Below, piece after piece: positions 30,362 through 45,216 of a stretch of 64,000 nt of DNA (positions within the stretch are counted from its first letter, which is position 1; each line of letters opens with the position of its first letter). The notes beneath the pieces are model-generated. The model was not told the origin of the DNA. It was given only the letters and a program-made list of their open reading frames with translations, and ran no database searches. The translations under genes and the position numbers were made by a program. The stretch covers positions 372,001-436,000 of the forward strand of contig CALSRZ010000001.1 of NCBI GenBank assembly GCA_943788895.1, in the 5' to 3' direction. The DNA comes from an uncultured Pseudomonadales bacterium. GTDB lineage: Bacteria > Pseudomonadota > Gammaproteobacteria > Pseudomonadales > Porticoccaceae.

Positions 30362-31075
30362 CTACTGCCACTCTGAAAACCGCTTGCGACCGCGCAGTTT
30401 AGGAATCAGGATAACCAGAATAGCACCTAAAAATACCGTTAGGCCGCCGTACAGAAATGACTCATTGCGTTTATCTTTCTGCAGATCATCAACATTGGCT
30501 TTTAAAGCATCGTTTTCACGCTGCAGCATATGATTATTTTTAACCAGCTGTTCATTCTGCTGGTTGAGAGTAATCGCATCCGATGAAATTGTTTTGATCT
30601 CTGCCAGCTCACGAGCCACAGTTTCATTGTCACCCAGCGAGCTATCCAACTGATCGCGCAGTGCTTTTGACTCAGCGCGCAGTTCCTTGAAGTCTCTATC
30701 CAGTTCAGAGTTACGCTTTTTAAGCGCAGAAAGTTCTTTTTGTTGCTGATTAAGTTTGATGCGCGCAATAGGCTCATCAACCAAATACTGAGCTTCCATC
30801 CAGCCTTCAGTACCTCTTGCAGTGATCAGGTGGCCCCAGCCATCGACCACTTCCAAAAGACGCATCTTGCTACCGGTTTTAATACCCCGGTGAACGATGG
30901 TGCAGCGAGAGCAGGGTGTCTCGCGCAGCGGCACAAGAAACTCATCGGTAACGTAAACAGTCTTTTCCTGCGGATAGACCTTTTCTGCTGTAACTGTTTC
31001 TACAGACTCTTCAGCAAAAGCGGTATTGCTAAGCGAAAGTGCGAGAACAGAGATTGCCAAAAATAGATATTTCAT
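30362..31075 (-). CDS. Membrane-anchored SH3-domain protein (YgiM/TIGR04211 type)
   Basis: The order of parts is a signal peptide (MKYLFLAISVLALSLSNTAFA), a bacterial SH3 domain (YVTDEFLVPLRE to WMEAQYL), a long coiled coil (about residues 105-200), a membrane helix (LYGGLTVFLGAILVILI) and a basic tail. This is the layout of the TIGR04211/YgiM family, whose role in the envelope is not settled. I chose ATG 31075, because 22 residues upstream in the same frame are not signal-like. The SH3 domain carries a CSRC motif where relatives usually have Gly-Pro-Ser, so a periplasmic disulfide is possible. Confidence 0.82.
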   Translation of the reverse strand: MKYLFLAISVLALSLSNTAFAEESVETVTAEKVYPQEKTVYVTDEFLVPLRETPCSRCTIVHRGIKTGSKMRLLEVVDGWGHLITARGTEGWMEAQYLVDEPIARIKLNQQQKELSALKKRNSELDRDFKELRAESKALRDQLDSSLGDNETVARELAEIKTISSDAITLNQQNEQLVKNNHMLQRENDALKANVDDLQKDKRNESFLYGGLTVFLGAILVILIPKLRGRKRFSEWQ

Positions 31076-31160
31076 GGTTTTTAAAGATGCTGTGTTGTAG
31101 AAGCGTGGATAATACTCTGATCGGCGGCAAATGATAACCATTTGCCGCCTAAACCAGGGT

Positions 31161-31460
31161 TTAGGGAAGAACTTTCTTGAAAGGTTTCACGGTTACCTGT
31201 TTATAGACACCGGCATCCATATAGGGATCTGCATCAGCCCACTGCTGAGCATCGGCTAAACTGGCAAATTCGGCGATCACCAGACTGCCCGTAAAACCAG
31301 CTTCACCGGGATCCATAGCATCTATAGCCGGATGCGGGCCAGCGACAAACAGGCGGCCATCATTTTTTAAAGTCTGTAAACGCTCCAGATGGGCTGGACG
31401 CGCCTGCAGGCGTTTATCCAAACTGTTATCCACATCTTCGCTGATAATTGCATACCACAT
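31161..31460 (-). CDS. yciI: YciI family protein
   Basis: The roughly 99-residue product reads [18 protein letters not shown], then [28 protein letters not shown] and [16 protein letters not shown], closely matching E. coli YciI, a small dimeric ferredoxin-like fold of unclear enzymatic role. ATG 31460 is preferred over ATG 31466, since AGGG lies seven bases before it. It sits between a multi-pass membrane protein and the SH3 protein; in many gammaproteobacteria yciI also neighbours a septation or membrane gene. Confidence 0.88.
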
Positions 31461-31472
31461 AATCATACCCTG

Positions 31473-32231
31473 TTATTTTTGTTTAATAATGTCTTCCAGA
31501 GGAATACCGGTCAGGCGCTTAATACCCCTGAACAGATAGAACATATCGGCAATCATCACCAGCATTGCCGGCACCGCAATCACCGGAAAACTCAGCGCCG
31601 TCATCTTGCCCAGCTGCTCGTTAAATTCAATAGTTCCCGGAGCTGCCGTAAGCATATAGATGGCGAGAAAATAGTTGAGAACCGCCGAAAGTAAAAATGA
31701 TCCGGCGAGAATCCACGAGGCGTTGATAAGTAGCTGGTCAAATTCTGCCTGACGGTTATTGGCCTTTAGAGCCGCGGCTATTTTATCCGTCTCAAGAATT
31801 GAATCATTGAGCAGAAAGGTATGAATTAGAGGCTGAGAGGTTTTAAGCGAGACCAGCGTTGCCAGGCCAAACAGCAGCGGAATACTTGCCTCTTTAATCG
31901 CGATATAGATTGCATCCAGCTCCATCAAACTGATGCCGCCGGTCATAGAGACACTGATAACACCCAGTGCGGAAAAGAAATTGATCTTACCGCGGGTAAA
32001 GAAATCTCTAATACCGTAGATAATTGGAAAGGACAGAGCCACCACAATCGCCAGTTTGATTCCTAGGTAATCGTCGCCGCTAAGCTTGGTTAGCACCAGA
32101 GTGGGTATGGCTATATTAAAGGCCAGATTGAGAAGCAGGCTTTCTTTAGGTGCTTCTTTAGGTGCTTCTGATTTCGGCTTCGAGTCTGGGCTGCTATTTG
32201 TGATTTCGTCCATAGTATCAATAGTAATCAT
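31473..32231 (-). CDS. Multi-pass membrane protein of the VC0807-like family
   Basis: The 252-residue product has a hydrophilic N-terminus with a short repeated EAPKEAPKE stretch, then about six membrane helices with charged loops (IRDFFTRGKINFF, AALKANNRQAEFDQL). It resembles the VC0807 family of uncharacterised membrane proteins. ATG 32231 or ATG 32213 could start it; neither has a good ribosome site. It begins the minus-strand group and is divergent from the ThDP gene, with 187 bp between them. No function can be given. Confidence 0.65.
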   Translation of the reverse strand: MITIDTMDEITNSSPDSKPKSEAPKEAPKESLLLNLAFNIAIPTLVLTKLSGDDYLGIKLAIVVALSFPIIYGIRDFFTRGKINFFSALGVISVSMTGGISLMELDAIYIAIKEASIPLLFGLATLVSLKTSQPLIHTFLLNDSILETDKIAAALKANNRQAEFDQLLINASWILAGSFLLSAVLNYFLAIYMLTAAPGTIEFNEQLGKMTALSFPVIAVPAMLVMIADMFYLFRGIKRLTGIPLEDIIKQK

Positions 32232-32343
32232 CTGTCTAGTGAAGCGGGCATTGTAACCACTGAGTGGCGATTGTCGATATGGCGAGTCTTAATAAAGTAA
32301 AAAGAGTCTGTCAGTGAAGAATATTTTATTGCCAACATCGCAT

Positions 32344-32383
32344 TCTTGATCTATTACTTTGGTTAATAAAAAAAGGATCAAGA
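32344..32383. promoter_or_regulatory. Inverted repeat upstream of the ThDP operon
   Basis: TCTTGATC (32344-32351) and GATCAAGA (32376-32383) are exact reverse complements with 24 bp between. Their centres are 32 bp (about three helix turns) apart, 36 bp before the start at 32419. They could be an operator for a dimeric regulator or an mRNA stem. No regulator gene lies next to it. Confidence 0.45.
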
Positions 32384-32418
32384 CTTCTTTGTATGTTGCT
32401 AATTTATAAGGCAAAAAG

Positions 32419-34251
32419 ATGACAGAGTTGGAAAAGGAAGCGATTCCTAAAGTGATACAAAAGGGTGCTCAAACTGTTCGGAAGGGCGCTCAAGCTGTCC
32501 CGGCGATAGGGCCAAAAATGGCCGATTTATTAGTCGCCTATTTAAATCAACTGGGTGTGGAATATGTTTTTGGTGTGCCAGGAGGTGCAATAGAGCCTCT
32601 CTATGATGCATTGGCACGCAGCGAGAGACAGGGCGGCGTTAGAGCCGTAGTCGCTCGTCATGAAACCGGCGCAGCATTTATGGCCGATGGCTACGCCAGA
32701 AACAGCGGTAAGTTAGGTGTCTGCTGTTCAACCACAGGCCCGGGCGCAACCAATATGATTACCGGCGTTGCATCCGCCTATGAAAACAACGTGCCGATGC
32801 TGGTAATAACCGCACAGACGGCTATTTCAACCTTTGGCAAAGGGGCTATTCAGGACTCATCCTGTACTGGTGTAAACACCGTAGGTCTCTACCAACACTG
32901 CAGCAGATACAACACTCTTATTTCTCATAAAGATCAATTTGAACACAAGTTGGCTGCGGCAATTATGTCTGCTCTCGGCTCACCAGCCGGGCCTGCACAT
33001 ATCAGCATACCGCGCGATGTAATGGCTATGCCTATATCGGTTACCGAAGCCAATTATCAGTTAAATACCCTGTTAGATAAGCCTGAGTTGATTGATGACC
33101 ACGCAGTGGATCAGCTTTTTGCCGAATTAAAAAAAGCGAAAAAGCCAGTGTTTATTATTGGCGATGAAGCCTGTGATGCGATTGGCAGCATTCTTACATT
33201 GGTAGTAAAGACCGGCGCTGATCTTATCGTGACACCCCAGGGCAAAGGGCTGGTTAGTCCCTATCACCCTCAGTTTAAAGGGGTCTTTGGTTTTGCCGGC
33301 CACAGTGCCGCTCGTGAGGTATTGGTTGATCCTAAAGTGGATTTGGTAATTGCTATTGGTGCTCGGTTTGGCGAGTTCTCTAGCAATGCTTGGGATACTA
33401 AAAGCTTGCTTAATGGCAAGCTGGTACATGTTGAATCCACCGAAGCTAATTTGACCAGAACACCCATGGCAAAATTACATGTCAGAGGTTGCCTCGAAAC
33501 CATTTTTGATCGAATCGCCAGCCGCTTTGGAATAGATACAAAGCGGTATATGAGACTGGTTAAATCGAGCAGTGCAAAGTCTGAAGCAACCATGACCAGA
33601 CATTTTGAGTTTGACGACGAGCAGGGCTATTGCTCAGATGCATCGCCGATTAAACCCCAGCGTCTGATGCGCGATCTTCCAAGATTATTTCCACCTCACA
33701 GCCGTTATCTGGTTGATACTGGAAACAGTCTGGCATGGGGCACTCACTACCTGCATCCTTTTGACCGACGATTTTCTGGCAAGCGCGAAGAGCGCGGTGG
33801 ACTGTTTAGTGCCTCGGTAGATTTCGCCTCCATGGGTTGGGCAATTGGCAATGCAGTGGGAACCAGTCTGGCAGTTTCTAATACACCGGTTGTCTGTATT
33901 ACTGGTGATGGCAGCTGGTTAATGAGCGGTCAAGAAATCACTGTCGCTATCGAAGAAAAATTAACTATTATTTTTGTCATTCTAAATGACAGTGCCTACG
34001 GCATGGTGCGTCACGGCCAGACTCTTACCGGCGCTGAGCCTACAGCCAGCGCATTGGCCAATGTCGACTTCGCCGCAATGGCTATGTCGATGGGAGCTCC
34101 AGGGCATATTATTCACTCGCCAGAAGACCTTAATCGTCTCGATATAAAGACTATCTGCCAGCGCAAGTCCCCCACAGTTTTGGACGTAAGAATTGATCAA
34201 AATGAAGCCCCCCCGATCGGGTTGCGAACCAATGTGTTGCAAAGCGGATGA
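32419..34251 (+). CDS. Thiamine-diphosphate enzyme of the acetolactate-synthase superfamily, substrate unknown
   Basis: The 610-residue protein has the three-domain layout of AHAS-like ThDP enzymes. The Pyr domain holds the catalytic Glu82 in VVARHETGAAFMADGYAR. The central domain reads KPVFIIGDEACD. The PP domain has the cofactor motif GDGS (496-499) to LND (522-524), where most relatives have NN. An N-terminal extension of about 30 residues carries a short repeat (KGAQTVRKGAQAV) not usual in IlvB. No small AHAS subunit gene is near, and the QIDxxF-type substrate region of biosynthetic AHAS is replaced by GKGAIQDSSCTGVNTVGLY, so a branched-chain role is unlikely. It would decarboxylate a 2-oxo acid or join two carbonyl compounds. 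AAGG lies six bases before the ATG. Its stop overlaps the next start (ATGA), so it is coupled to the citrate-synthase-like gene. Confidence 0.85.
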   Translation: MTELEKEAIPKVIQKGAQTVRKGAQAVPAIGPKMADLLVAYLNQLGVEYVFGVPGGAIEPLYDALARSERQGGVRAVVARHETGAAFMADGYARNSGKLGVCCSTTGPGATNMITGVASAYENNVPMLVITAQTAISTFGKGAIQDSSCTGVNTVGLYQHCSRYNTLISHKDQFEHKLAAAIMSALGSPAGPAHISIPRDVMAMPISVTEANYQLNTLLDKPELIDDHAVDQLFAELKKAKKPVFIIGDEACDAIGSILTLVVKTGADLIVTPQGKGLVSPYHPQFKGVFGFAGHSAAREVLVDPKVDLVIAIGARFGEFSSNAWDTKSLLNGKLVHVESTEANLTRTPMAKLHVRGCLETIFDRIASRFGIDTKRYMRLVKSSSAKSEATMTRHFEFDDEQGYCSDASPIKPQRLMRDLPRLFPPHSRYLVDTGNSLAWGTHYLHPFDRRFSGKREERGGLFSASVDFASMGWAIGNAVGTSLAVSNTPVVCITGDGSWLMSGQEITVAIEEKLTIIFVILNDSAYGMVRHGQTLTGAEPTASALANVDFAAMAMSMGAPGHIIHSPEDLNRLDIKTICQRKSPTVLDVRIDQNEAPPIGLRTNVLQSG

Positions 34252-35039
34252 CGGATAAACCGGTTGAAACCATCACCACTAAAATTTGGCGAGAGACTCC
34301 AGAAGTAGATAATCCCTTTGCAGCAGCAGACTGTTTTTGCGCTGGATACAATGTCTATGGCGATCTCTTAAAAAATGCCAGCTTTATCGACTACCTGTTT
34401 TTATTATTTAAATTGCAGCCTCCCAATCCTCAGCAATCTGCGCTGCTGGAAGGGCTGGCTATTGCACTGGCCAATCCCGGCCCAAGGGATCATAGCGTTA
34501 GAGCGGCGATGAGCGCAGGTGTTGGTGGCTCCACCCATCCCTCGGCATTAATTGCCGCACTCTCAGTTGGCGCGGGGAATCTCGGTGGTGCCCGTGAGGT
34601 TTTCCATACCGTTGAATACTGGCAACACTGTAATACCAGCTTAAAAGACTGGCAGCAGTTAATTAAAAATCCACCTGCGGAACAGCGCGCAGATGTCTGG
34701 TTGCCAATGGAGCATCCGCCCGGTTTTGATCCCAATGGGGTCAGCTGTCCGACCCCGGTAAAACAGACCCTGGCTTATCTTGCTGATGTAGGCAAAACAG
34801 TGCATTTAAATTGGTTGCAAGATAACCGACAACAGTTGGAGGAGTTTGCCGACTGTCCCCTGGCATTTTCTGGCGTTGCTGCAGCGGCACTTTTTGATCT
34901 GGGTTTTTCCCCTGAACAGGCAGAGATGCTCTATCTATTGCTACGTCTGCCCGGTGCTGCAGTGCACTCTTTAGAGCAGGAAAAACTTGGCTGGCGGAAG
35001 TATCCTTTTTTTGCCAATGGCTTCAAATTAAATCCGTAA
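34248..35039 (+). CDS. Citrate-synthase-like protein A, catalytic residues apparently lost
   Basis: The 263-residue product matches the short citrate synthase/citryl-CoA lyase fold: an N-terminal part FIDYLFLLFKL, then DHSVRAAMSAGVGGS (81-95) at the place of the DHxxNAST helix, GNLGGA (110-115) at the place of the LHGGA loop, PPGFDPNG (157-164) at the place of the GFGHxxY loop, and PLAFSGVAAAALFDLGF (204-220) at the place of the NVDFYSG helix. By this alignment His264 of E. coli GltA becomes Leu112, His305 becomes a non-His residue, and Asp362 becomes Ala206. So it may bind an acyl-CoA but hardly catalyse normal citrate chemistry. It overlaps the ThDP gene by 4 nt and precedes a second paralogue by 27 nt. 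The alignment is by eye. Confidence 0.7.
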   Translation: MTDKPVETITTKIWRETPEVDNPFAAADCFCAGYNVYGDLLKNASFIDYLFLLFKLQPPNPQQSALLEGLAIALANPGPRDHSVRAAMSAGVGGSTHPSALIAALSVGAGNLGGAREVFHTVEYWQHCNTSLKDWQQLIKNPPAEQRADVWLPMEHPPGFDPNGVSCPTPVKQTLAYLADVGKTVHLNWLQDNRQQLEEFADCPLAFSGVAAAALFDLGFSPEQAEMLYLLLRLPGAAVHSLEQEKLGWRKYPFFANGFKLNP

Positions 35040-35066
35040 ACACAACTACAAATTTGGAAAAACTGT

Positions 35067-35873
35067 ATGCCTGTTCACAGTAAGTTAGAGAAGTTTGAGG
35101 ATAATTGGCGAACCTCAATTGGCGGTTGGTCTCTTGAGGGGAAAGTGGTTTTGCGCGGCAAGGATGTTTTTACCGAGTTGAATGAAAAGCCATGGATGGA
35201 ATATCTGTTATATGCGGCAACTGGCAAAGAATCGCCAAAGCTAGGCCGCTTAATAGAAGCTATTTGGGTGATCTGTACCAGCTTTCCCGACCCGCGAATT
35301 TGGAATAATCGGATCTCTGCACTGGCAGGAACCGCTCGATCAACTGGAGTTCTGGCGGCAGCCGGGTCGTTGGCAGTAACAGAGGCGACGGTATACGGGT
35401 TAAAGCCAATTAAAGGCGCTTCAGATTTTCTAATTCGTGCAGATCAGCGACTTAAAGAAGGTGAAAGTTTAGAGCAGATAATAAAGACAGAGTTAAAACA
35501 ATTCCGCAGTGTTTACGGGTATGGACGGCCAATTGCAGATGCGGATGAACGAGTAAAGCCAATGATGGAATTTGCTCGTTCAATTGGTTGTGGTAATGGC
35601 AAGTACGTCAAGCTGGCTTTTGACGTTGATGAGTATTTAAGCAATACCAGACTTAAGTATAAGATCAATATCGCGGCAGTTTGTGCGGCATTGTTGGCTG
35701 ACGAAGGTATAGATCCAGCTGAATTGTACAACTTGGCTACCTTGTCTTTTACGGCTGGCGCTATGCCCTGTTTTATCGATGCAAGTAATCAGCAGGAGGG
35801 AGGATTTTTTCCCTTGCGAACCTCTCGACTCAGTTTTACAGGCGTCGAGGAGATCAGACACTGGGAGGTGTAG
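35067..35873 (+). CDS. Citrate-synthase-like protein B, catalytic residues apparently lost
   Basis: The 268-residue product begins with NWRTSIGGWSLEGKVVLRGKDV, a typical citryl-CoA lyase N-terminus. It continues with GTARSTGVLAAAGSLAV, YGLKPIKGASDF (110-121) at the place of the HGGA loop, VYGYGRPIADADERVKP (149-165) at the place of the GYGHPVYxxxDPR loop, and KINIAAVCAALLADEGI (199-215) at the place of the NVDFYSG helix. The three catalytic positions read Lys116, Arg154 and Ala, instead of His, His and Asp. It is a paralogue of protein A; the two may form a heteromer working with the ThDP enzyme. The gene ends 3 nt before the TonB receptor start. Confidence 0.7.
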   Translation: MPVHSKLEKFEDNWRTSIGGWSLEGKVVLRGKDVFTELNEKPWMEYLLYAATGKESPKLGRLIEAIWVICTSFPDPRIWNNRISALAGTARSTGVLAAAGSLAVTEATVYGLKPIKGASDFLIRADQRLKEGESLEQIIKTELKQFRSVYGYGRPIADADERVKPMMEFARSIGCGNGKYVKLAFDVDEYLSNTRLKYKINIAAVCAALLADEGIDPAELYNLATLSFTAGAMPCFIDASNQQEGGFFPLRTSRLSFTGVEEIRHWEV

Positions 35874-35876
35874 AGC

Positions 35877-38006
35877 ATGAGTAAATTATATGGAGTATTT
35901 TTGGTCGCAGGGCTAATTTCAATCAATAGCTTGGGTCAGGATAGTTTAAATTCGGATGTTGATTTTGCCGGATTCTACGGGGATGAAGATTTTGTCTCTA
36001 TTGCTACAGGTAGTGTTCAGCCAATTGCCAAAGCTCCGGCAGTCGCCTCGGTAATTACGGCCCAGCAGATTCAAGCTATGGGTGCCAGAGATATTGATCA
36101 GGTGCTTGAGACCGTTCCTGGTCTCCATGTTACTCGCAGTCCTCTTTATAACTCTATGTACATCTTTCGAGGAGTTAATGCTGATTTTAACCCTCAGGTA
36201 TTAATGTTAATAAATGGTATTCCGCTGACTAATCTTTTTCAGGGAGATCGAAATTTAATCTGGACCGGCATGCCAGTTGAGGCAATCGCAAGGATAGAGG
36301 TGATTCGTGGTCCAGGTTCCGCACTTTATGGTGCCGATGCCTTTGCTGGTGTTATCAATATAGTGACCAAGGGGCCGGAAGAGATAGAGAAAAACTCTGC
36401 CGGTGCAGTTATAGGTGACTTTGGCACAAGAGAGGTATGGTTGGCCGCAGAGGGAGAAACTGGCGAGATGGCCTATTCAGCGGTTATTGAATTGGGCGAA
36501 ACCGATGGTACTGATGAGCAGATTGAGAGCGATGCCCAAAGCCTGCTAGATTTTCTCTCGGGAACCTCGGTATCAAATGCGCCCGGATCGGTTAATCGCT
36601 CTCAGCAAAATATCGATATTAGACTCGAAGCTCTCTACAAAAAGATGCGCTTTAGGCTTGGCGGTCAAATTCGTAAAGATATTGGCGATGGTGCCGGTGT
36701 AGCTGAAACACTCAACAGAAAAAATAAATTCGCCAGCCAGCGATTTAATGCTGATTTTACTTATACAGAAGATGAACTTTCGAAAAACACCTCATTGGAA
36801 TTTCAGGCCAGTTATCTGGATACCTCCCAGGAAGTTGAAGGCGACTTTATTCTCTACCCCCCTGGTTCCAGAGGCCCATTTTTCGATTCACTTGGTGCAC
36901 CGATATTTCCGCCTTTCCCTGACGGCGTAATAGGCAATCCGGAGATTTTTGAAAATCATCTTCGCGCCAGCCTGCGTCTCAACTACAAAGGCATAGAACA
37001 TCATAATCTGAGTATGGGCAGCGGCTATTACCACGGCCAGATCGACAAGGTCACCGAAGAGAAAAACTTTGGTATCAATCCGGATACATTGCTGCTGATT
37101 CTGCCCGGTGATTCACTAGTGGATGTCTCTGATACGCCGCTGGTATTTCTGACCGAAGACGAGCGCGAAAATCACTATCTGTATTTTCAGGATGTCTGGT
37201 TGATTGACAATGACTGGGAGCTAACTGCAGGTCTTCGCTACGATAATTATTCCGATTTTGGTTCCACCACCAATCCGCGTATCGCACTGGTCTGGTCGAC
37301 CAGCTATAAGTTAACCACCAAGTTCCTCTACGGCGAGGCGTTTCGTGCGCCATCTTTTGCCCAGACAAGGGCGATTAATAATCCATTGATTCTGGGTAAT
37401 ATCGATCTTAAGCCGGAAGAGATTAAGAGTTATGAGGTTGCATTCGATTACCGTCCGAACTATCAATTAACCTTAAATACCAATTTTTTCTATTATGATT
37501 GGACGGATATTATTCAGTTTATACCGGATATGAGTGGCAGCACTCGAACGGCGCAAAATGCCGGAGAGCAGACTGGTTATGGCATGGAGTTTGAGGTCAA
37601 TTGGTCGGCGACAGATAATTTAACTATCAGCAGTAACTTTTCCATTCAGAAATCTACTGATGAAACCCTTGATGTAGCAGCCTCCAAATCACCGGAAAAG
37701 CAGTTCTATCTGCGCGGGGACTGGACATTGCCCAGTGATTGGCGGGTGGATATGCAGGCTAACTGGGTGATGGACCGAAATCGCATGATAGGAGATTCAC
37801 GTCCACAGATTGATGATTATCTTATTGTCGACGTATCAGTTCGTAAGATTTTAACAAAGTCATTTGAGGTGGGGTTTACGATTAATAATGCTTTTGATGA
37901 GGATGCTCGAGAGCCGAGCCCCAACTCCGCCCCAGTGCCTTTTATACCCAATGATCTACCCTTATCAGGTAGAACAGTATTAGGTGAAATCCGCTATAGC
38001 TTTTAA
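35877..38006 (+). CDS. TonB-dependent outer membrane receptor
   Basis: The 709-residue product has a short signal peptide, a plug domain (APAVASVITAQQIQAMGARD, VLETVPGLHV, YIFRGVNADFNPQVLMLING, IARIEVIRGPGSALYGADAFAG VINIVTKG as consecutive blocks) and a 22-strand-type barrel ending in the aromatic residue of IRYSF. It should import a ligand across the outer membrane with TonB energy. It starts 3 nt after the second citrate-synthase-like gene, so import and the metabolic genes are probably co-expressed. The ligand is unknown; the barrel gives no siderophore- or sugar-specific clue that I can read. Confidence 0.9.
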   Translation: MSKLYGVFLVAGLISINSLGQDSLNSDVDFAGFYGDEDFVSIATGSVQPIAKAPAVASVITAQQIQAMGARDIDQVLETVPGLHVTRSPLYNSMYIFRGVNADFNPQVLMLINGIPLTNLFQGDRNLIWTGMPVEAIARIEVIRGPGSALYGADAFAGVINIVTKGPEEIEKNSAGAVIGDFGTREVWLAAEGETGEMAYSAVIELGETDGTDEQIESDAQSLLDFLSGTSVSNAPGSVNRSQQNIDIRLEALYKKMRFRLGGQIRKDIGDGAGVAETLNRKNKFASQRFNADFTYTEDELSKNTSLEFQASYLDTSQEVEGDFILYPPGSRGPFFDSLGAPIFPPFPDGVIGNPEIFENHLRASLRLNYKGIEHHNLSMGSGYYHGQIDKVTEEKNFGINPDTLLLILPGDSLVDVSDTPLVFLTEDERENHYLYFQDVWLIDNDWELTAGLRYDNYSDFGSTTNPRIALVWSTSYKLTTKFLYGEAFRAPSFAQTRAINNPLILGNIDLKPEEIKSYEVAFDYRPNYQLTLNTNFFYYDWTDIIQFIPDMSGSTRTAQNAGEQTGYGMEFEVNWSATDNLTISSNFSIQKSTDETLDVAASKSPEKQFYLRGDWTLPSDWRVDMQANWVMDRNRMIGDSRPQIDDYLIVDVSVRKILTKSFEVGFTINNAFDEDAREPSPNSAPVPFIPNDLPLSGRTVLGEIRYSF

Positions 38007-38044
38007 ACGCCGGTTAGACTGAGGGTGAAAGTGAGGGGTTCAAT

Positions 38045-38079
38045 GTCAGCTTTGGTCTAGATGACTGGCTGACTTTTTT
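38045..38079 (+). terminator. Terminator-like hairpin after the TonB receptor gene
   Basis: GTCAGC (38045-38050) pairs with GCTGAC (38068-38073) across a 17-nt loop and is followed by six T (38074-38079). The stem is short, so read-through into the next two genes is likely. Confidence 0.45.
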
Positions 38080-38117
38080 ACGGCAGTACAGGGAGTAGTG
38101 CTATAAAGATCAAACAG

Positions 38118-39047
38118 ATGGTTTCTGTATTTTGGCTGGCTCTGGCCGGTCTATTCTCCACAGTAGTTGTCCCACTGGCTGGCGCTGAAACTGTTGCTGA
38201 AGAAGCTATTGATCTGGTGATTATTTATCCAGAGGTACGCGAGCCCTTTGCCAGAGTTTTTGAAGAGGTTGTTCGAGGGGCAGAGCAGGGCTATCAGCAA
38301 AAAGTCAGGCGAGTCTCTATGGCGAATAATCAATCGCCTGTCGATTTTGTCCATGTGCTAGATCAGAACTCTCCGGTGCTGGTTCTCGGCAACCGACTGG
38401 CACGGCAGGTCACCAAGCACAATGCTGAAAGCCCTTTGATTGTTGGCGCGGTAAACAGCGAATACAGCAATGTATTTGGAATTACGCTTATTCCTGATGT
38501 CGAGATTATCGCCACTAAACTGCCGGTGCTGTTACCGGGAGTCAAGACTGTGCATATAGTCACCAATTCTGAAAACACCCTGTTTGATTTTGATCGTGCC
38601 GCCTCTGTGCTGTTGCAGCAGGGTATAGAGCTCACTATTCATCAGGCTGAGGATATAAGAGTTGCTGCTGGGGTTTACCGGGACCTGATGCCGACACTGG
38701 GTGAACAGGACGCTGTGTGGATTCTTCCCAAAGGTTCCTTTGTGAATAATGCAGTGCTGGCAATTTTGCTTCAGGAGTCATGGGAAAAACACTTTGTGGT
38801 TTTCTCCTCAAATCCTATCCATGTTAAACGCGGGGCACTATTTTCAATATACCCAAACAATTACAAAATGGGTTTAAGCCTCGGTCGCCTGGCTCAGGAT
38901 ATAGTGCAGGGCAATTCACCCCAACGTCAGATGCAGGCGCTGGAGGATGTGTTTGTTACTGTGAATGAGCGCACCAGTAATCATCTGGGCATTAACCTTA
39001 CCGATGATATGCGCAGGCATATTGATTTGATTCTTCCGGCTCGCTAA
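38118..39047 (+). CDS. Periplasmic substrate-binding protein (ABC_sub_bind/PF04392-like)
   Basis: The 309-residue product has a hydrophobic export signal and the two-lobed binding-protein pattern of the PF04392 group (IDLVIIYPEVREPFARVFEEV, SPVLVLGNRLARQVTKHN, VFGITLIPDVEIIATKLPVLLPGVKTVHIV). No ABC permease or ATPase gene is near; instead the gene lies 2 nt before a membrane hybrid kinase, so it most likely presents a ligand to that kinase. ATG 38118 has no ribosome site at normal distance and gives a signal peptide without positive charges. An in-frame ATA at 38103 has GGGAG seven bases before it and would add two lysines (xKIKQM), so a rare AUA start is possible. Confidence 0.75.
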   Translation: MVSVFWLALAGLFSTVVVPLAGAETVAEEAIDLVIIYPEVREPFARVFEEVVRGAEQGYQQKVRRVSMANNQSPVDFVHVLDQNSPVLVLGNRLARQVTKHNAESPLIVGAVNSEYSNVFGITLIPDVEIIATKLPVLLPGVKTVHIVTNSENTLFDFDRAASVLLQQGIELTIHQAEDIRVAAGVYRDLMPTLGEQDAVWILPKGSFVNNAVLAILLQESWEKHFVVFSSNPIHVKRGALFSIYPNNYKMGLSLGRLAQDIVQGNSPQRQMQALEDVFVTVNERTSNHLGINLTDDMRRHIDLILPAR

Positions 39048-39049
39048 CC

Positions 39050-42000
39050 ATGAAAATAAACACGAGAAAAGGCTGGTTCGATAAGTTGAGATTTAAAACT
39101 CAGCTGACACTGGTTTTTGTTGTCGGAATTCTGTTGGTGGCGACTCTCACTTCGGTGATCGTGAGCAAGATATCCAGTGGCATTATTGAAGATCATCAGG
39201 TTCTTCAAGGAATGCAGGTAACCGAGTCACTGGCTCGCCAAAGTGAGGTAGCACTGCTCTACCAGAGCCCTGAAAGTGCTGAGGATATTGGTAAAAATGC
39301 GATTAATTTTCCCGGTGTAAAGGGAATTATTATTGAGACGGAAAAGTCAGACCTGCTATTTAATATAGGTGTTACCTCGCTTGATTCGTTGAACCTGGAT
39401 TCTCCGCGATCGGCTCTTGATAGATCCGGCGAATTGAGCCTGGCTGAAGAGAATGAAAATCTTTGGAAGTTTACCTCACCGGTCTTTGTCAGCGGTGATG
39501 ACGGTGATCTTGAGATGCAGGCTGTAGAGAGTTTAGTCAAAGAGAAAATTTTACTCGGTTATATTACCGTTTTCGTCGGCAAAGATACCCTGAGGCTGAT
39601 GCAGCAGAGCACCCTGAGAATTAACCTGCTGGTTTCCTTTGCCGGGGCGATGATTTTGCTTTTGGTTCTGTTGTATTTTTCCCGCCGTCTGACACGTCCA
39701 ATTGAGCGTCTGTCGGCGGTGATGAAGAGGGCGCGGGATGGTAAAAAGAAAACCATCAGAGCCCGGGTCAATGGCCCGGTCGATATTACCGAGATGCAGG
39801 ATTCTTTTAATAGCATGATGCAGGTACTCGAAGATCGTCAGGGTGAATTGGAGCGGGTGATGAATTCGGCACTGGAATCTGCGCGTGTAAAGGGTGAATT
39901 TGCCGCCAATGTAACCCACGAATTGCGGACACCGATGAATGCTGTTCTGGGAATGCTCGATCTGCTGTTGACCATGGGACTGAGTTACAAGCAGAAGGAG
40001 TATGTAGAGACAGCCAAGACATCCGGCGAGAGTTTGCTCAGCCTTATTGATGAGATACTGGATTTCTCCGAAGGAGATGCCGGTAAGATCAGCATCAACA
40101 ATCACGACTACCTGCTCAATGAAAGTCTCGATGATATTGTTGGTTTACTGTCCAGTACGGCACTGAAAAAGCAGATAGATATTGGCTATATCGTCGATGA
40201 AAATGTGCCTCAGGCACTGCATTCAGACAGCGTGCGAATCCGTCAGGTACTGATTAATCTGGCGGGTAATGGCGTCAAATTTACTGAGACTGGAGAGGTC
40301 TCAATTCATGTCAGCGTCGATCGCGATATTGCCGATGCAGATAAAACTGAGGACCTTACCCAGCTTAAATTTGTGGTTAAAGATACCGGTATAGGTGTCT
40401 CCCTGGAAGATCAGTCGCGGGTCTTTGATGCCTTTACTCAGGTTGATTCCTCGACCACCAAAGAGTATCAGGGCACCGGCTTGGGCCTTGCTATAAGCAC
40501 CCAGATTATCGAGATGATGGGCGGCGATATCTTTGTCTCCAGTGAGGTGGGTGTCGGCAGCGAGTTTGGTTTTACCCTGCCGATACAGACCCGTCAGCCA
40601 CCAGAACAGCCCCCACTACATGAGGAGCTGGATGGCATCAATGCGCTGTTTGTCAGTGACAGTGAAATACTCAATGCAGTTGCCAGTCAAAAGCTCAGCG
40701 CCCTGGGTGTTGGTGTTATGTTTGCCAGCTGCGGCTCTGAGGCGCTAAAACTTATTCGCGAGAGCACCCCTGCAGAGCGTTTCGATATTTTGTTTGTGGA
40801 TCAGGATATCAGTGATATCAAGATCAATGATTTTATCGGCTTTGTTAAAAAGGAAGAGAATTTTGGTAAGCGTCTGGCAGTAATGTTAAGCAACCCCTGG
40901 GCGGTTGATCCCCAGATTCGCGATCTTTCGCTGCCGCGCCTGAACAAACCGCTGCGCTCCAGCTCCTTTGCCGATCTGCTGATTAAATATTTTGTGACCG
41001 AAAATCTCAGCGAGTCGGATGAATATCAGCTGTTAAAAGAGCCGCAGGGTGAAGGCTGCAGGGTATTAATTGTCGATGATAATCGCGCCAACCAACAGGT
41101 CGCTATGGCCATGTTGGAAAAGCTTAACTGCCGGGCCAGTGTCGCGGAAAATGGTCAAAAAGCCTTGGAGCGAGTGAGTCGCGAGCACTATGACCTGATA
41201 TTGATGGATTGCAATATGCCGGTAATGAACGGCTATGACGCGACAGGAAAAATACGTGATCTCGAAGGCGATAAAGCCGGAACCCTGCCAATTATTGCGA
41301 TGACCGCAAATAATAGTGAGGCTGAGGAGGAGCACTGTAAAGATGTGGGTATGAATGACTTCTTACCCAAGCCCCTAAGTCTGAGTGGCTTGAGCGACAA
41401 GCTCGAGCAGTGGGTAGGTAGTCAGTTTAAACAGGCGCAGCAGTCCGAGTCCGAACCGCAGTCCTCAGCAACTGAGGTAAAGCAACCTGAAGCGGCCTAC
41501 AGATCCCTGAGCTATGACGTTAAAGTGATCGAAGCACTGCGTGAGGCAGTGGGTGAAGTTGTGTCTTCGATGATTTCAGCCTTTGTCGAAGATACTCCGG
41601 TCTACCTTGAAAAATTAAGAGCGGCTGCCATAGAAAACAATGCTCGACATGTTCGCGAAATGGCCCATACCATCAAGGGCAGTGCGGCTAATTTTGGTGC
41701 CCAAAAACTGGTTGAGCTGAGCAGGGTTCTCGAAGATCGCGCCGCTCAGGATGATCTCAGTCGAGTGCTGGATCATGTCAGTAAAATTTCTGATGCCTTT
41801 GATATTTTAGAAGATGATTTAAAGCAGGAAATATCGCCGGTCAATCAGTCCGCTAAAGTGGCGTTTAAAAATGATCGTCACAGCCGAATTCTGGTGGTTG
41901 ATGACGATCGCACCATGCGTCTGGCATTAGTTGATGCATTTCTAAAAGAGAACTACGAAGTCGAAGAGGCGAGCAATGGTATGCACGCGCTGAATATCTG

Positions 42001-43558
42001 CAAACGGCGGATGCCGGATTTAGTCCTGATGGATGCAGTGATGCCCGAGCTGGATGGCTTTGATGCCTGCCAGATGATTCGCGATACCGCTCAGGGCGCC
42101 GATATCCCCGTGTTGATGGTAACGGCCCTTGAAGATGAAGACTCAATTGTCAGGGCATTTTCCAGTGGTGCCACAGACTATATTGCCAAGCCGATAAACT
42201 TCTCGGTGATGAAGCAGCGTGTAGCGCGCCTGATCAAGGCCAATAAGGCAGAGAAAGATGTTAAAAAACTCGCCTACCACGACCCGTTAACAGGTCTGCC
42301 GAATCGCGCCCAGTTAAAGCAGCAGATACGCATTATTGTTAACCGTGCAGCCATAGAAAAGCAGCGCTTCGCGATTCTGTTTCTCGATTTAGATCGCTTT
42401 AAAATGATCAATGACACCATGGGTCACGATGCCGGTGATCTTTTATTGAAAGCAGTTGCCGATCGAATCCGCCACTGTGTGCGCGAGAATGACTTTATTG
42501 CCCGCCTTGGCGGTGATGAGTTTACCATTCTGCTGGAAAATATAGAGAGCCCCGAAGGTGCCGCCAATGTCGCCGAAAAGATCTGCAGGTCAGTGGGCCA
42601 ACCCTTTGTATTTATGCAGCAGAAGATGTTTGTCACCACCAGTATTGGCATATCGATTTTCCCCGACGATGGCGAGGACGTCAGCGCACTGATCAAGCAC
42701 GCGGATTCAGCGATGTTCCGCGCAAAGGAAAAGCGCAATAATTTCTGTTTCTACGAACAGGGCATGGAAGCAGAGATTGCCAAACGCTTAAGGCTGGAAC
42801 AGGAACTGCGTAAAGCCATAGATGAAGATGAGCTGGTTTTACACTACCAGCCACAGGTCAACCTAAAGACCGGCGAACTGATTGGCGCCGAGGCACTGGT
42901 GCGCTGGCAGCACCCGGTAAAAGGTCTGGTATCGCCAGATGTATTTATACCCCTTGCCGAAGAGAGCGGCTTGATCAACCAGCTTAGCGACTGGGTGCTG
43001 GAAAATGCCGCCGTGCAGTTAAAAGCATGGATTCACAAAGGTCATCAATTAACCCTTGCGGTTAATCTATCGGTCAAGGACTTGATGGCCGAAGAGCTGC
43101 ACACCAAGTTACACGATCTTATGCAGCGCAACAGCCTGCCGAAAAATGTTCTTGAGCTGGAAATTACCGAGAGCACATTGATGGATCACCCAGAGCTAAT
43201 GATCACCGAAATTAACAAGATCAAGCGCATGGGTGTGACTATTGCCATCGACGACTTTGGCAGTGGTTATTCATCGCTTAACTATCTCAAGCGCCTGCCG
43301 GTAGATGTATTAAAAATTGATCGTTCATTTATTGCTGATATTGAATCAGACCCCAGCGACAGTGCCATAGTCGCAGGTATTATCGGTCTCGCCAAAAGCC
43401 TGAAGATGAAGACCGTTGCCGAGGGTGTTGAAACCGAACAGCAGCGCCAGATACTCGAAGAGTTAGGCTGTGATAATTATCAGGGCTATCTGTTCAGCAA
43501 GCCCCTGACCTCCAAGTCGTTTGTAAAGAAGTTTTTATCCGCAGAAAAAGCAATCTAA
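39050..43558 (+). CDS. Hybrid histidine kinase with three receivers, HPt, GGDEF and EAL domains
   Basis: The 1502-residue protein has, in order: a membrane helix (about 16-40), a periplasmic sensor of some 145 residues, a second helix (190-212), HAMP, HisKA with VTHELRTPMN (His290), HATPase (GTGLGLAIS), a degenerate receiver (Asp584 kept, first acidic residue Ser, Thr changed to Ser), a full receiver (Asp720 in LILMDCNMP), an HPt (His873 in MAHTIKGSAANFG), a third receiver (Asp995 in LVLMDAVMPELDG), GGDEF (1154-1158, with RxxD inhibition site five residues upstream) and EAL (1281-1283, with DDFGSGYSS). All catalytic motifs of both c-di-GMP domains look intact. The first part is BarA/EvgS-like; fused GGDEF-EAL makes it a complete phosphorelay with its own c-di-GMP output. 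It lies 2 nt after the binding-protein gene. Confidence 0.93.
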   Translation: MKINTRKGWFDKLRFKTQLTLVFVVGILLVATLTSVIVSKISSGIIEDHQVLQGMQVTESLARQSEVALLYQSPESAEDIGKNAINFPGVKGIIIETEKSDLLFNIGVTSLDSLNLDSPRSALDRSGELSLAEENENLWKFTSPVFVSGDDGDLEMQAVESLVKEKILLGYITVFVGKDTLRLMQQSTLRINLLVSFAGAMILLLVLLYFSRRLTRPIERLSAVMKRARDGKKKTIRARVNGPVDITEMQDSFNSMMQVLEDRQGELERVMNSALESARVKGEFAANVTHELRTPMNAVLGMLDLLLTMGLSYKQKEYVETAKTSGESLLSLIDEILDFSEGDAGKISINNHDYLLNESLDDIVGLLSSTALKKQIDIGYIVDENVPQALHSDSVRIRQVLINLAGNGVKFTETGEVSIHVSVDRDIADADKTEDLTQLKFVVKDTGIGVSLEDQSRVFDAFTQVDSSTTKEYQGTGLGLAISTQIIEMMGGDIFVSSEVGVGSEFGFTLPIQTRQPPEQPPLHEELDGINALFVSDSEILNAVASQKLSALGVGVMFASCGSEALKLIRESTPAERFDILFVDQDISDIKINDFIGFVKKEENFGKRLAVMLSNPWAVDPQIRDLSLPRLNKPLRSSSFADLLIKYFVTENLSESDEYQLLKEPQGEGCRVLIVDDNRANQQVAMAMLEKLNCRASVAENGQKALERVSREHYDLILMDCNMPVMNGYDATGKIRDLEGDKAGTLPIIAMTANNSEAEEEHCKDVGMNDFLPKPLSLSGLSDKLEQWVGSQFKQAQQSESEPQSSATEVKQPEAAYRSLSYDVKVIEALREAVGEVVSSMISAFVEDTPVYLEKLRAAAIENNARHVREMAHTIKGSAANFGAQKLVELSRVLEDRAAQDDLSRVLDHVSKISDAFDILEDDLKQEISPVNQSAKVAFKNDRHSRILVVDDDRTMRLALVDAFLKENYEVEEASNGMHALNICKRRMPDLVLMDAVMPELDGFDACQMIRDTAQGADIPVLMVTALEDEDSIVRAFSSGATDYIAKPINFSVMKQRVARLIKANKAEKDVKKLAYHDPLTGLPNRAQLKQQIRIIVNRAAIEKQRFAILFLDLDRFKMINDTMGHDAGDLLLKAVADRIRHCVRENDFIARLGGDEFTILLENIESPEGAANVAEKICRSVGQPFVFMQQKMFVTTSIGISIFPDDGEDVSALIKHADSAMFRAKEKRNNFCFYEQGMEAEIAKRLRLEQELRKAIDEDELVLHYQPQVNLKTGELIGAEALVRWQHPVKGLVSPDVFIPLAEESGLINQLSDWVLENAAVQLKAWIHKGHQLTLAVNLSVKDLMAEELHTKLHDLMQRNSLPKNVLELEITESTLMDHPELMITEINKIKRMGVTIAIDDFGSGYSSLNYLKRLPVDVLKIDRSFIADIESDPSDSAIVAGIIGLAKSLKMKTVAEGVETEQQRQILEELGCDNYQGYLFSKPLTSKSFVKKFLSAEKAI

Positions 43559-43657
43559 ATCAACTTATTGGCATTGCTGTATGGGATAATGCCGGCCAAA
43601 ATTACCCAGTGTGATATTTCATTTAGCCCTATAAGTTTATCTTTGGAGAGTCCGTCC

Positions 43658-44275
43658 TTGAGTGAATATTTTTCAATTCATCCAGAAAATCCTCAACAGC
43701 GCCTGATCGCCAAAGCGGCCGAGATTGTTCGCAAGGGCGGGGTTATTGTCTACCCAACTGACTCTGTGTATGCCATCGGCTGCCATATAGGTGACAAGCA
43801 GGCCCTCGATCGTATTCGTGCTATTCGCCACATCGACAAAAATCATAACTTTACATTGATGTGCCGAGATCTCTCTGAACTGGCCAGCTATGCCAAGGTT
43901 GATAACAGCGCCTTTCGCAGCCTTAAAGCCAGCACCCCAGGCCCCTTTACCTTTATCCTGCCGGCCACCTCAGAAGTGCCGCGGCGACTGATGCACCCCA
44001 AGCGTAAAACCATCGGCCTGCGGGTTCCCGATAGCCCGATTGCCCAGGCACTGCTCGAAGAGCTTGCCGAGCCAATGATGAGCGTCACCCTGATACTGCC
44101 TGGCGACGACTATCCGCTATCAGACCCCTACGATATTCGCAGCGCCATGGAAGCTCATGTGGATGTGATTGTCGATGGCGGCTATTGCGGGCTTGAGCCA
44201 ACCACTGTGGTCGATATGACCGACGACCTGCCACAGATTACCCGTCAGGGAATGGGTGATTTTTCGGCAAATTGA
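43658..44275 (+). CDS. yciO: YciO, Sua5/YrdC-family protein
   Basis: The product matches E. coli YciO along its length: FSIHPENPQQRLI, EIVRKGGVIVYPTDSVYAIGC, HNFTLMCRDLSEL, STPGPFTFIL, PRRLMHPKRKTIGLRVP and QGMGDFSAN. The family fold binds ATP/threonylcarbamoyl-AMP; YciO itself is a paralogue of TsaC with weaker or different activity. I place the start at TTG 43658 (MSEYFSIHP), with GGAGAG seven bases upstream, as in E. coli. A longer frame from 43568 is open but not conserved. scpA-scpB-rluB follow after 77 nt. Confidence 0.88.
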   Translation: MSEYFSIHPENPQQRLIAKAAEIVRKGGVIVYPTDSVYAIGCHIGDKQALDRIRAIRHIDKNHNFTLMCRDLSELASYAKVDNSAFRSLKASTPGPFTFILPATSEVPRRLMHPKRKTIGLRVPDSPIAQALLEELAEPMMSVTLILPGDDYPLSDPYDIRSAMEAHVDVIVDGGYCGLEPTTVVDMTDDLPQITRQGMGDFSAN

Positions 44276-44352
44276 TAATCATGGTCGTTTCAATGATGGT
44301 TAAGTACAGCATTGCGGTTATAATTGCGTTCAAATGATAAATTGAGTCGACC

Positions 44353-45216
44353 GTGACTACCCAAGCCACTCCTCTGGAAGAAAATAATACGCTCGAACAG
44401 CCCGGCGAAATTGCTGGTGGCGCCCCGCGTCCAGAGCAAGAGGAGATGCCGTTTGCCATGGTTCAGGGCAAAGAGCTCACCGTGGTACCCAAAGATCTGT
44501 ATATCCCACCGGATGCCCTGGAAGTTTTTCTCGAAGCCTTTGAGGGACCGCTGGATCTGCTGCTGTATTTAATTCGCCGTCAAAATCTCGATATTCTCGA
44601 GATCAATGTCGCCGAAATTACCAGCCAATATATGGGTTATATCGGTCTGATGGAATCTATCCATCTCGAGTTGGCATCAGAGTATCTGGTGATGGCAGCC
44701 ATGCTCGCCGAGATTAAATCGCGCATGCTGTTGCCCCGTCAGGTCACCGAAGACGATGATGAAGAAGATCCACGGGCAGAGCTAATCCGTCGCCTGCAAG
44801 AGTATGAGCGATTCAAGAAAGCCGCCGACGATATTGATGAGATGCCGCGCCTCGGTCGCGATATTCACCAGGCATCAGCTCATGCGCCGGAGCGCAATCA
44901 GGAAGTGCCGCATCCGACCGTTGATATGCGCGAAGTATTGGCTGCTCTTGCGGATGTACTGCAGCGCGCAGAAATGTTTGAAAGCCATCAGGTGGAAATG
45001 GAAAAACTCTCCACCAGAGAGCGTATGACCAGAGTGCTGGATACCCTTCAGGGTGAGCAATTTGTGCCCTTTGTAAGCTTGTTTAAGCTCTCCGAGGGCA
45101 AACTTGGCGTAGTGGTAACATTCTTGGCCATTATGGAACTGATTAAAGAGTCACTGGTAGAGATCGTGCAGAGCGAATCCTTTGGCCCAATACATGTAAA
45201 AGCTAGAACATCATGA
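44353..45216 (+). CDS. scpA: Segregation and condensation protein ScpA
   Basis: The 287-residue kleisin has an unusual 55-residue hydrophilic N-terminal extension, then the conserved ScpA start VFLEAFEGPLDLLLYLIRRQNLDILEI, a helical middle (AAMLAEIKSRMLLPRQ) and a C-terminal winged helix (FVPFVSLFKLSEGKLGVVVTFLAIMELIKE). It bridges the two Smc heads together with ScpB. Translation starts at GTG 44353; a later ATG at 44449 would still keep the core. The stop overlaps the scpB start (ATGA), so they are coupled. Confidence 0.93.
   Translation: MTTQATPLEENNTLEQPGEIAGGAPRPEQEEMPFAMVQGKELTVVPKDLYIPPDALEVFLEAFEGPLDLLLYLIRRQNLDILEINVAEITSQYMGYIGLMESIHLELASEYLVMAAMLAEIKSRMLLPRQVTEDDDEEDPRAELIRRLQEYERFKKAADDIDEMPRLGRDIHQASAHAPERNQEVPHPTVDMREVLAALADVLQRAEMFESHQVEMEKLSTRERMTRVLDTLQGEQFVPFVSLFKLSEGKLGVVVTFLAIMELIKESLVEIVQSESFGPIHVKARTS

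Follow-up and report, generated by a model that had tools for sequence, protein, structure and literature searches.

A six-gene block in a Porticoccaceae bacterium that probably makes and senses a small molecule

We analysed a stretch of 64,000 nucleotides (the window) from an uncultured Pseudomonadales bacterium of the Porticoccaceae, a marine organism of SAR92 type (assembly GCA_943788895.1, contig CALSRZ010000001.1, positions 372,001 to 436,000 of the forward strand). The source genome comprises 1.95 Mb in six contigs and is 93.1% complete. The subject of this study is a block of six open reading frames (ORFs) on the plus strand at 32419-43558, encoding in this order a thiamine diphosphate (ThDP)-dependent enzyme, two citryl-CoA-lyase-like proteins (CSL1 and CSL2), a TonB-dependent outer-membrane receptor, a periplasmic binding protein (SBP) and a hybrid sensor kinase (HK). 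The successive gaps are -4, 27, 3, 111 and 2 nt. All these ORFs and gaps, from which the original prediction had proposed a candidate new system, were confirmed. We concluded that the six genes are probably parts of a single undescribed system for making and sensing a small molecule, because the same six recur together in distant bacteria.

The first gene (32419..34251, + strand) encodes an acetolactate-synthase-like enzyme of 610 aa with the Pfam domains TPP_enzyme N, M and C. Glu82, the GDG at 496-498 and Asn523 were invariant in 29/29 aligned sequences; we take the Glu and the GDG...N to be the catalytic and cofactor motifs of ThDP enzymes. The enzyme has the same domains and cofactor motifs as the large subunit of acetolactate synthase (ALS) and the ScyA-type acyloin synthases. 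In contrast to these, however, it fell under the cut-off of every NCBIfam model among the matches listed (25 of 55 models), which include ALS and ScyA models; the best ALS match listed reached 296.6 bits against a cut-off of 509 (NF006187), and another reached 286.7 against 538.35 (TIGR00118). The closest PDB matches of its profile were BbmA and CsmA, followed by E. coli ALS I. In a tree of 31 rows a branch with 100/99 support split 23 ThDP enzymes of the system from 8 other ThDP enzymes. The 23 include two from another class and two from variant operons (L187 and L188; numbers with L and G denote loci and genomes). Both variant-operon enzymes, that of L188 on a long branch, nested in a group of 21 excluding the other class (100/99).

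The next two genes encode CSL1 (34248..35039, + strand; 263 aa) and CSL2 (35067..35873, + strand; 268 aa). Neither had a Pfam match, and NCBIfam citryl-CoA lyase models matched them only far under their cut-offs. With profiles built from 32 sequences each, the best solved relative was the citryl-CoA lyase 6hxp (E 9.6e-26 for CSL1 and 3.4e-17 for CSL2). The fold of CSL1 was assigned by profile only; for CSL2 a predicted model (pLDDT 83.9) was used as well, and its top PDB fold was again 6hxp (E 3e-9, TM 0.74/0.77). In the fold of CSL2, in both profiles and in length the proteins resemble citryl-CoA lyase and the CCL module of ATP-citrate lyase. They differ from these in that two paralogues lie side by side, that CSL2 carries an invariant Arg154, and that two residues are missing which we take to be catalytic, the His of the GYGH motif and the Asp of the NVDG motif; the Asp column is our own reading, helped by the titles of the D1026A and D541A mutant PDB entries.

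At the place of the GYGH His, CSL1 had Pro in 20, Ser in 8, Thr in 2 and Ala in 2 sequences, thus no His in 32/32, and CSL2 likewise lacked His in 32/32. In the alignment of CSL2 with 6hxp the His lies within an insertion and Arg154 is paired with the following Arg, and in the alignment with 2p2w Arg154 occupies the His column. The Asp was found in 0/32 CSL1 (position 208) and 0/32 CSL2 (position 203) sequences, and the first His was retained in 7/32 CSL1. The description of the pair as pseudo-citrate synthases is supported by these residues. As the GYGH His and the NVDG Asp are absent in both families, the citryl-CoA-lyase reaction is unlikely in CSL1 and CSL2. Judged by the sequences, the pocket is nevertheless under strong constraint; Arg154, Asp160, Arg162 and Asn201 were invariant in 32/32 CSL2.

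The fourth gene (35877..38006, + strand) encodes the TonB-dependent receptor of 709 aa, with the Pfam domains Plug and TonB_dep_Rec_b-barrel, and its linkage to the block is found in distant genomes. NCBIfam models for haem and siderophore receptors matched the protein under their cut-offs. Such matches speak for a metallophore system, in which the enzymes would make a carboxylate chelator, the receptor would recover the metal complex, and SBP and kinase would report it; tricarboxylate chemistry would also suit a citrate-synthase-like scaffold. On the other side, the six genes include no chelator synthetase or exporter. The window had zero sites like one 19-nt Fur-box consensus at up to 3 mismatches, a weak test since this may not be the organism's own box. 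We consider the metallophore explanation improbable.

The SBP gene (38118..39047, + strand) encodes a protein of 309 aa of the PF04392 (ABC_sub_bind) kind according to Pfam. Its predicted model (pLDDT 88.9) was closest in fold to the L-Trp binding protein 3lft, to 3lkv and to CD0873, and LuxP appeared among the fold matches at ranks 23, 41 and 47. The SBP is the sole PF04392 match in its own genome. Unlike for PF04392 importers of the ABC type, the genome (93.1% complete) held none of PF02653 and PF06541, presumably the usual permease families for PF04392 proteins. Because of the sole match and the absence of both permease families, the SBP looks more like a receptor than a component of an importer. 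Of all proteins in the block it is also the least conserved, with a median identity of 48% over seven same-genus loci, compared with 81% for the ThDP enzyme (six loci) and 82% for pdxJ. Such low conservation within the genus would fit a shifting specificity for ligand or kinase.

The sixth gene (39050..43558, + strand) encodes the HK, 1502 aa, with the Pfam domains HAMP, HisKA, HATPase, two REC, Hpt, GGDEF and EAL. Its motifs are intact: His290 lies in HELRTP, GGDEF at 1154 and EAL at 1281. A binding-protein gene beside that of a membrane hybrid kinase, together with LuxP among the fold matches, is reminiscent of the LuxP-LuxQ system for AI-2. Unlike LuxP-LuxQ, the present block, known here from its genes, has an SBP nearest in fold to the L-Trp binding protein kind, and adds a TonB receptor, the ThDP and CSL proteins and a GGDEF-EAL part within the kinase.

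Within the genus, CSL1 was present in 11/35 genomes (own included), and in 17/56 relatives overall; it was interrupted or shortened in three genus genomes (G011, G016 and G020). A search with the ThDP protein gave ten loci in genomes titled Pseudomonadales, Porticoccaceae or SAR92 clade, partly the same genomes as in the CSL1 search. In seven of the ten the block was complete and its gene order unchanged; contig ends cut the remaining three. The six were complete in L033 of SAR92 clade bacterium H231, a cultured member of the clade. Among the seven, frames were broken in L029 (CSL1) and L034 (ThDP and TonB), and the CSL2 stretch was disturbed in L026.

Downstream of the block, yciO (ORF from 43568, same strand) starts 9 nt past the kinase gene. 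Of 24 searched genus genomes without a CSL1 match, 22 contained yciO, and 17 neighbourhoods were chosen from these 22. In 17/17 of these block-less neighbourhoods the upstream gene and yciO flanked the place. As yciO there adjoins the upstream flank, we placed it outside the block. Ten of the 17 had zero block genes between the flanks and could represent losses or an older absence. Five others of the 17 carried stumps: residues 33-322 of the ThDP enzyme only (L257); ThDP 32-171 beside kinase 913-1496 (L269); and kinase tails of residues 1226-1501 (L255), 1442-1500 (L256) and 1332-1498 (L266, less sure at 45% identity). The last two of the 17, L265 and L267, carried a different kinase at the same chromosomal place, with 33-34% identity over the kinase core. 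A further genome, G016 (L038), retained the ThDP gene, residues 1-217 of CSL1 and a kinase tail. Since the break points of the stumps differ, the block was lost more than once. Stumps between intact flanks (L257, L269, L255, L256, L266 and L038) are what one would expect if a trait that is costly or bound to a niche is lost repeatedly.

In 274 class genomes a search with CSL2 gave 33 matches, in 26/222 genera, and one with the SBP in the same genomes gave 43. At presence thresholds of E <= 1e-3 for CSL2 and E <= 1e-5 for the SBP, 30 genomes had both, 3 CSL2 only, 13 the SBP only and 228 neither (Fisher p 1.7e-26, kinship uncorrected); as the genomes are unevenly related, this is not an independent-sample p value. 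G107, G255 and G267 count as having both on weak matches, and G267 had no block gene near its CSL2 match (4.7e-5). When only the 32 strong SBP matches were used, the table became 28/5/4/237.

We fetched 31 class neighbourhoods of CSL2, excluding the own genome and the weak G267. ORFs in the compared loci were called by a simple script, and the bit thresholds for family assignment in class neighbourhoods were our own. All six families lay within 20 kb in 16/31 neighbourhoods, and in 12/16 of those uncut by a contig end. Several arrangements were observed: ThDP-CSL1-CSL2-TonB-SBP-HK as in the window (L082, L087, L091 and L095), ThDP-TonB-CSL1-CSL2-SBP-HK (L099 and L043) and CSL1-CSL2-ThDP-TonB-SBP-HK (L041); in L078, L080, L085 and L104 SBP and HK were on the opposite strand. 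Two of the uncut exceptions were L094, with CSL2 alone, and L081, in which ThDP-CSL1-CSL2 was followed on the same contig, from about 9 kb further on, by the TonB receptor, SBP and kinase (the triad). L039 had no SBP or kinase match within 12.8 kb after its TonB gene, L093 had ThDP-CSL1-CSL2 without the triad in the stretch, and L098 and L102, both cut, had CSL2 and the triad with no CSL1 or ThDP match.

The CSL2 profile gave 67 matches in 398 genomes of the phylum, of which 10 were at E < 1e-76 and the next at 2.5e-16. Eight of the ten strong matches were outside the class; four of these loci keep all six genes, and the other four (L137-L140) have ThDP-CSL1-CSL2 without the triad. The four six-gene loci belong to one class and share the order TonB-CSL1-CSL2-ThDP-SBP-HK, their SBP and kinase matching at only ~80-120 bits. 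Eight neighbourhoods of weaker citrate-synthase-like matches (L145-L152) had no ThDP match. Clustering of unassigned ORFs revealed no further universal partner gene; five clusters, of ABC-ATPase, CheR, REC, MCP and CheW type, occurred in at least 4 loci, none of them universal.

The claim that the genes form a unit was therefore upheld by the gene-neighbour analysis, both by the co-occurrence of CSL2 and SBP and by the complete loci inside and outside the class; unlinked upstream and sensor genes, which would have counted against a unit, were not the general case. The claim needs qualification for the triad without enzymes (12 loci of another class, described below) and for L081, L093 and L137-L140, in which the stretch contains ThDP-CSL1-CSL2 but not the triad. 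Each part is thus found without the other, as would be expected of two unrelated units, one metabolic (ThDP-CSL) and one sensory (TonB-SBP-kinase), which are adjacent since both favour the same place. The linkage, however, survives several changes of gene order and holds in two classes, the SBP is present in 30/33 CSL2 genomes (the three weak matches above included), and the deletions seen as stumps extend from the enzyme side of the block into the kinase gene. Two such units seem to us the least probable of the explanations considered, and highly improbable. A mere chance neighbourhood was ruled out by the linkage, by the co-occurrence and by the block-less loci with stumps.

SBP and HK were both present in 19/31 class neighbourhoods. 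GGDEF-EAL is fused to the kinase in the window, L043 and L082, and in 13/31 class neighbourhoods a GGDEF-EAL match lay apart from the kinase; the two of these scanned with Pfam (L080 and L104) were REC-REC-PAS-GGDEF-EAL proteins. The kinase of L083 was without GGDEF-EAL and none was nearby in the stretch, and in L084 none was found in the stretch either. The predicted output through cyclic di-guanosine monophosphate (c-di-GMP) is thus supported by the domains in the window and by the separate GGDEF-EAL proteins of relatives. Genes of CheR, CheW or MCP type adjoin the block in L076, L078, L080 and L085 (Pfam-checked in L078), a hint at a chemotaxis-type output there.

In the class that holds the four outside six-gene loci, 19/78 genomes had an SBP match; in the order of G187, 4 genomes were searched and one had an SBP. 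Eleven of 15 genomes of the other class with an SBP match but no CSL2 match were sampled, and 0/12 loci in them had a ThDP, CSL1 or CSL2 match in the stretch. Ten of the 12 (L220-L225, L227 and L229-L231) keep TonB receptor, SBP and kinase together, with the three families arranged as in the block, and L226 and L228 were cut by contig ends inside the triad. In L220 and L221 the TonB receptor and SBP were 60-70% identical to those of a full system.

In two other loci the ThDP enzyme has different partners. L187 has the ThDP enzyme with a methyltransferase and L188 with a KASIII; in both, TonB receptor, SBP and kinase follow, and there was no CSL match in the stretch. According to the tree, both ThDP enzymes are orthologous to those of the system. 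A protein of 131 aa (L188:5668-6060, - strand) lies between the ThDP enzyme and KASIII of L188 and had no Pfam or NCBIfam match. In further loci enzymes are added inside the block, namely a sulfotransferase (L042), an Asn-synthase-type amidotransferase (L100) and an SDR (L101 and L104). L104 has two ThDP genes (L104:7081-8988 and L104:15997-17883) and two TonB receptor genes in the same block, which may yield either two molecules or one mixed product. A protein-kinase/AAA sensor of ~1700 residues is encoded near the ThDP-CSL1-CSL2 cassette of L137-L140; GAF and histidine-kinase parts were found in the sensors of L137 and L139, that of L138 was cut, and the scan covered L137-L139. Other genes near this cassette encode a LuxR-type regulator (L139), FkbH-like proteins (L137 and L140), MaoC/SDR (L140), a methyltransferase (L137) and an AMP-ligase (L138). 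L137-L140 represent a third setting of the cassette and may form a separate natural-product cluster.

These variants bear on the strongest rival explanation, nutrient sensing and breakdown, in which the receptor would import an outside hydroxy-ketone or keto acid, SBP and kinase would sense it, and ThDP enzyme and CSL1/CSL2 would cleave it in the cytoplasm. An outside ligand would suit the triad without enzymes, nutrients and metal chelates are the usual cargo of TonB receptors, and the C-C chemistry of both ThDP carboligases and citryl-CoA lyases can run in the lyase direction. Breakdown fits less well with a block that has no permease gene, in a genome where PF02653 and PF06541 are both absent, and no dehydrogenase or CoA-enzyme family was common to at least 4 loci among the unassigned ORFs. 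Moreover, the enzymes that take the place of the CSL pair or accompany it are mostly of biosynthetic kinds. As the pair is replaced by a methyltransferase or KASIII, or joined by a sulfotransferase, an amidotransferase or a reductase, we favoured making over degrading of the ligand; a fixed C-C enzyme surrounded by interchangeable partners suggests the synthesis of diverse molecules. Breakdown is in our judgement unlikely, though less so than a metallophore.

Several features of the locus and its setting were also recorded. The GC content of the block is 0.477 compared with 0.505 in the remainder of the window, inside the range of 0.469-0.526 for 11-kb slices, and a recent foreign island is thus unsupported by composition. 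Carriage on plasmids was rejected: CSL2 had zero plasmid matches, CSL1 seven distant ones (22.6-25.6% identity, four labelled citryl-CoA lyase) and the SBP two weak partial ones. No Rfam riboswitch family reached the gathering threshold in 31000-45000. The promoter scan gave 20 hits where 16.2 were expected and the terminator scan 21 where 12.1 were expected; neither was used as evidence.

In our best reading the block joins a cassette that makes a ligand with a module for uptake and sensing, whose output is often c-di-GMP; we hold this reading to be evenly balanced between right and wrong. What the sequences themselves provide is a conserved unit with intact ThDP and kinase motifs, lost citryl-CoA-lyase residues and variant partner enzymes. 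In the proposed mechanism the cytoplasmic ThDP enzyme would join a 2-oxo acid to an acceptor in an acyloin-type C-C bond formation. ScyA and NzsH, described as ThDP enzymes that join 2-oxo acids (PMC9822442), offer a parallel to this step. CSL1 and CSL2, probably a heterodimer on the citryl-CoA-lyase scaffold, would bind or tailor a carboxylate or CoA intermediate via a rebuilt site. We infer that the product, presumably of this acyloin class, is exported, and that the released molecule would return across the outer membrane via the TonB receptor. The periplasmic SBP would then bind the same molecule and report to the hybrid kinase, which would adjust c-di-GMP through GGDEF-EAL.

A number of observations weigh against this reading. 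There is no exporter among the six genes, and the substrates of the ThDP enzyme are not readable from its predicted protein. Two uncut class loci, L096 and L101, have CSL1-CSL2-TonB without ThDP or SBP, and four class genomes (G119, G258, G260 and G286) have a strong SBP and no CSL2 match. Where the triad stands without enzymes, its ligand could be an outside compound. Each tailoring enzyme was met once or twice only, and the ABC-ATPase-type ORFs form one loose cluster from 10 loci, in varied places. Weighing the evidence, we ranked synthesis and sensing over breakdown, then a metal chelator, then mere neighbourhood.

The original prediction also knew of no description of this combination of families. 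This agrees with the open-access literature as covered by titles and abstract openings, a scope outside which most subscription papers lie. Together with its conjecture of a signalling circuit for a small keto or hydroxy acid, which the enzymes could make or destroy, the original prediction was thus partly supported. More tentatively, and with greater doubt than for the reading of the single block, we propose that the system may be a new and widespread form of Gram-negative chemical communication. It would have a constant acyloin-type ThDP synthase with swappable partners, giving each lineage a private molecule, a matched receptor, SBP and kinase leading to c-di-GMP or chemotaxis, genomes that are receivers only, and a lyase site rebuilt around an invariant Arg to serve a new reaction. 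The partners would be the pseudo-citrate-synthase pair, a methyltransferase or a KASIII, to which a sulfotransferase, an amidotransferase or a reductase may be added.

If the synthesis and sensing reading is true, SAR92-clade marine bacteria and many other Gammaproteobacteria would gain a dedicated circuit to make, take up and sense a molecule, with c-di-GMP as the likely output. The pairs of 'dead' relatives of citryl-CoA lyase that accompany a ThDP enzyme would then form a natural set and a clean case of a core metabolic scaffold turned to a new job. The full, receiver-only and lost states among relatives make social and ecological tests of the system direct.

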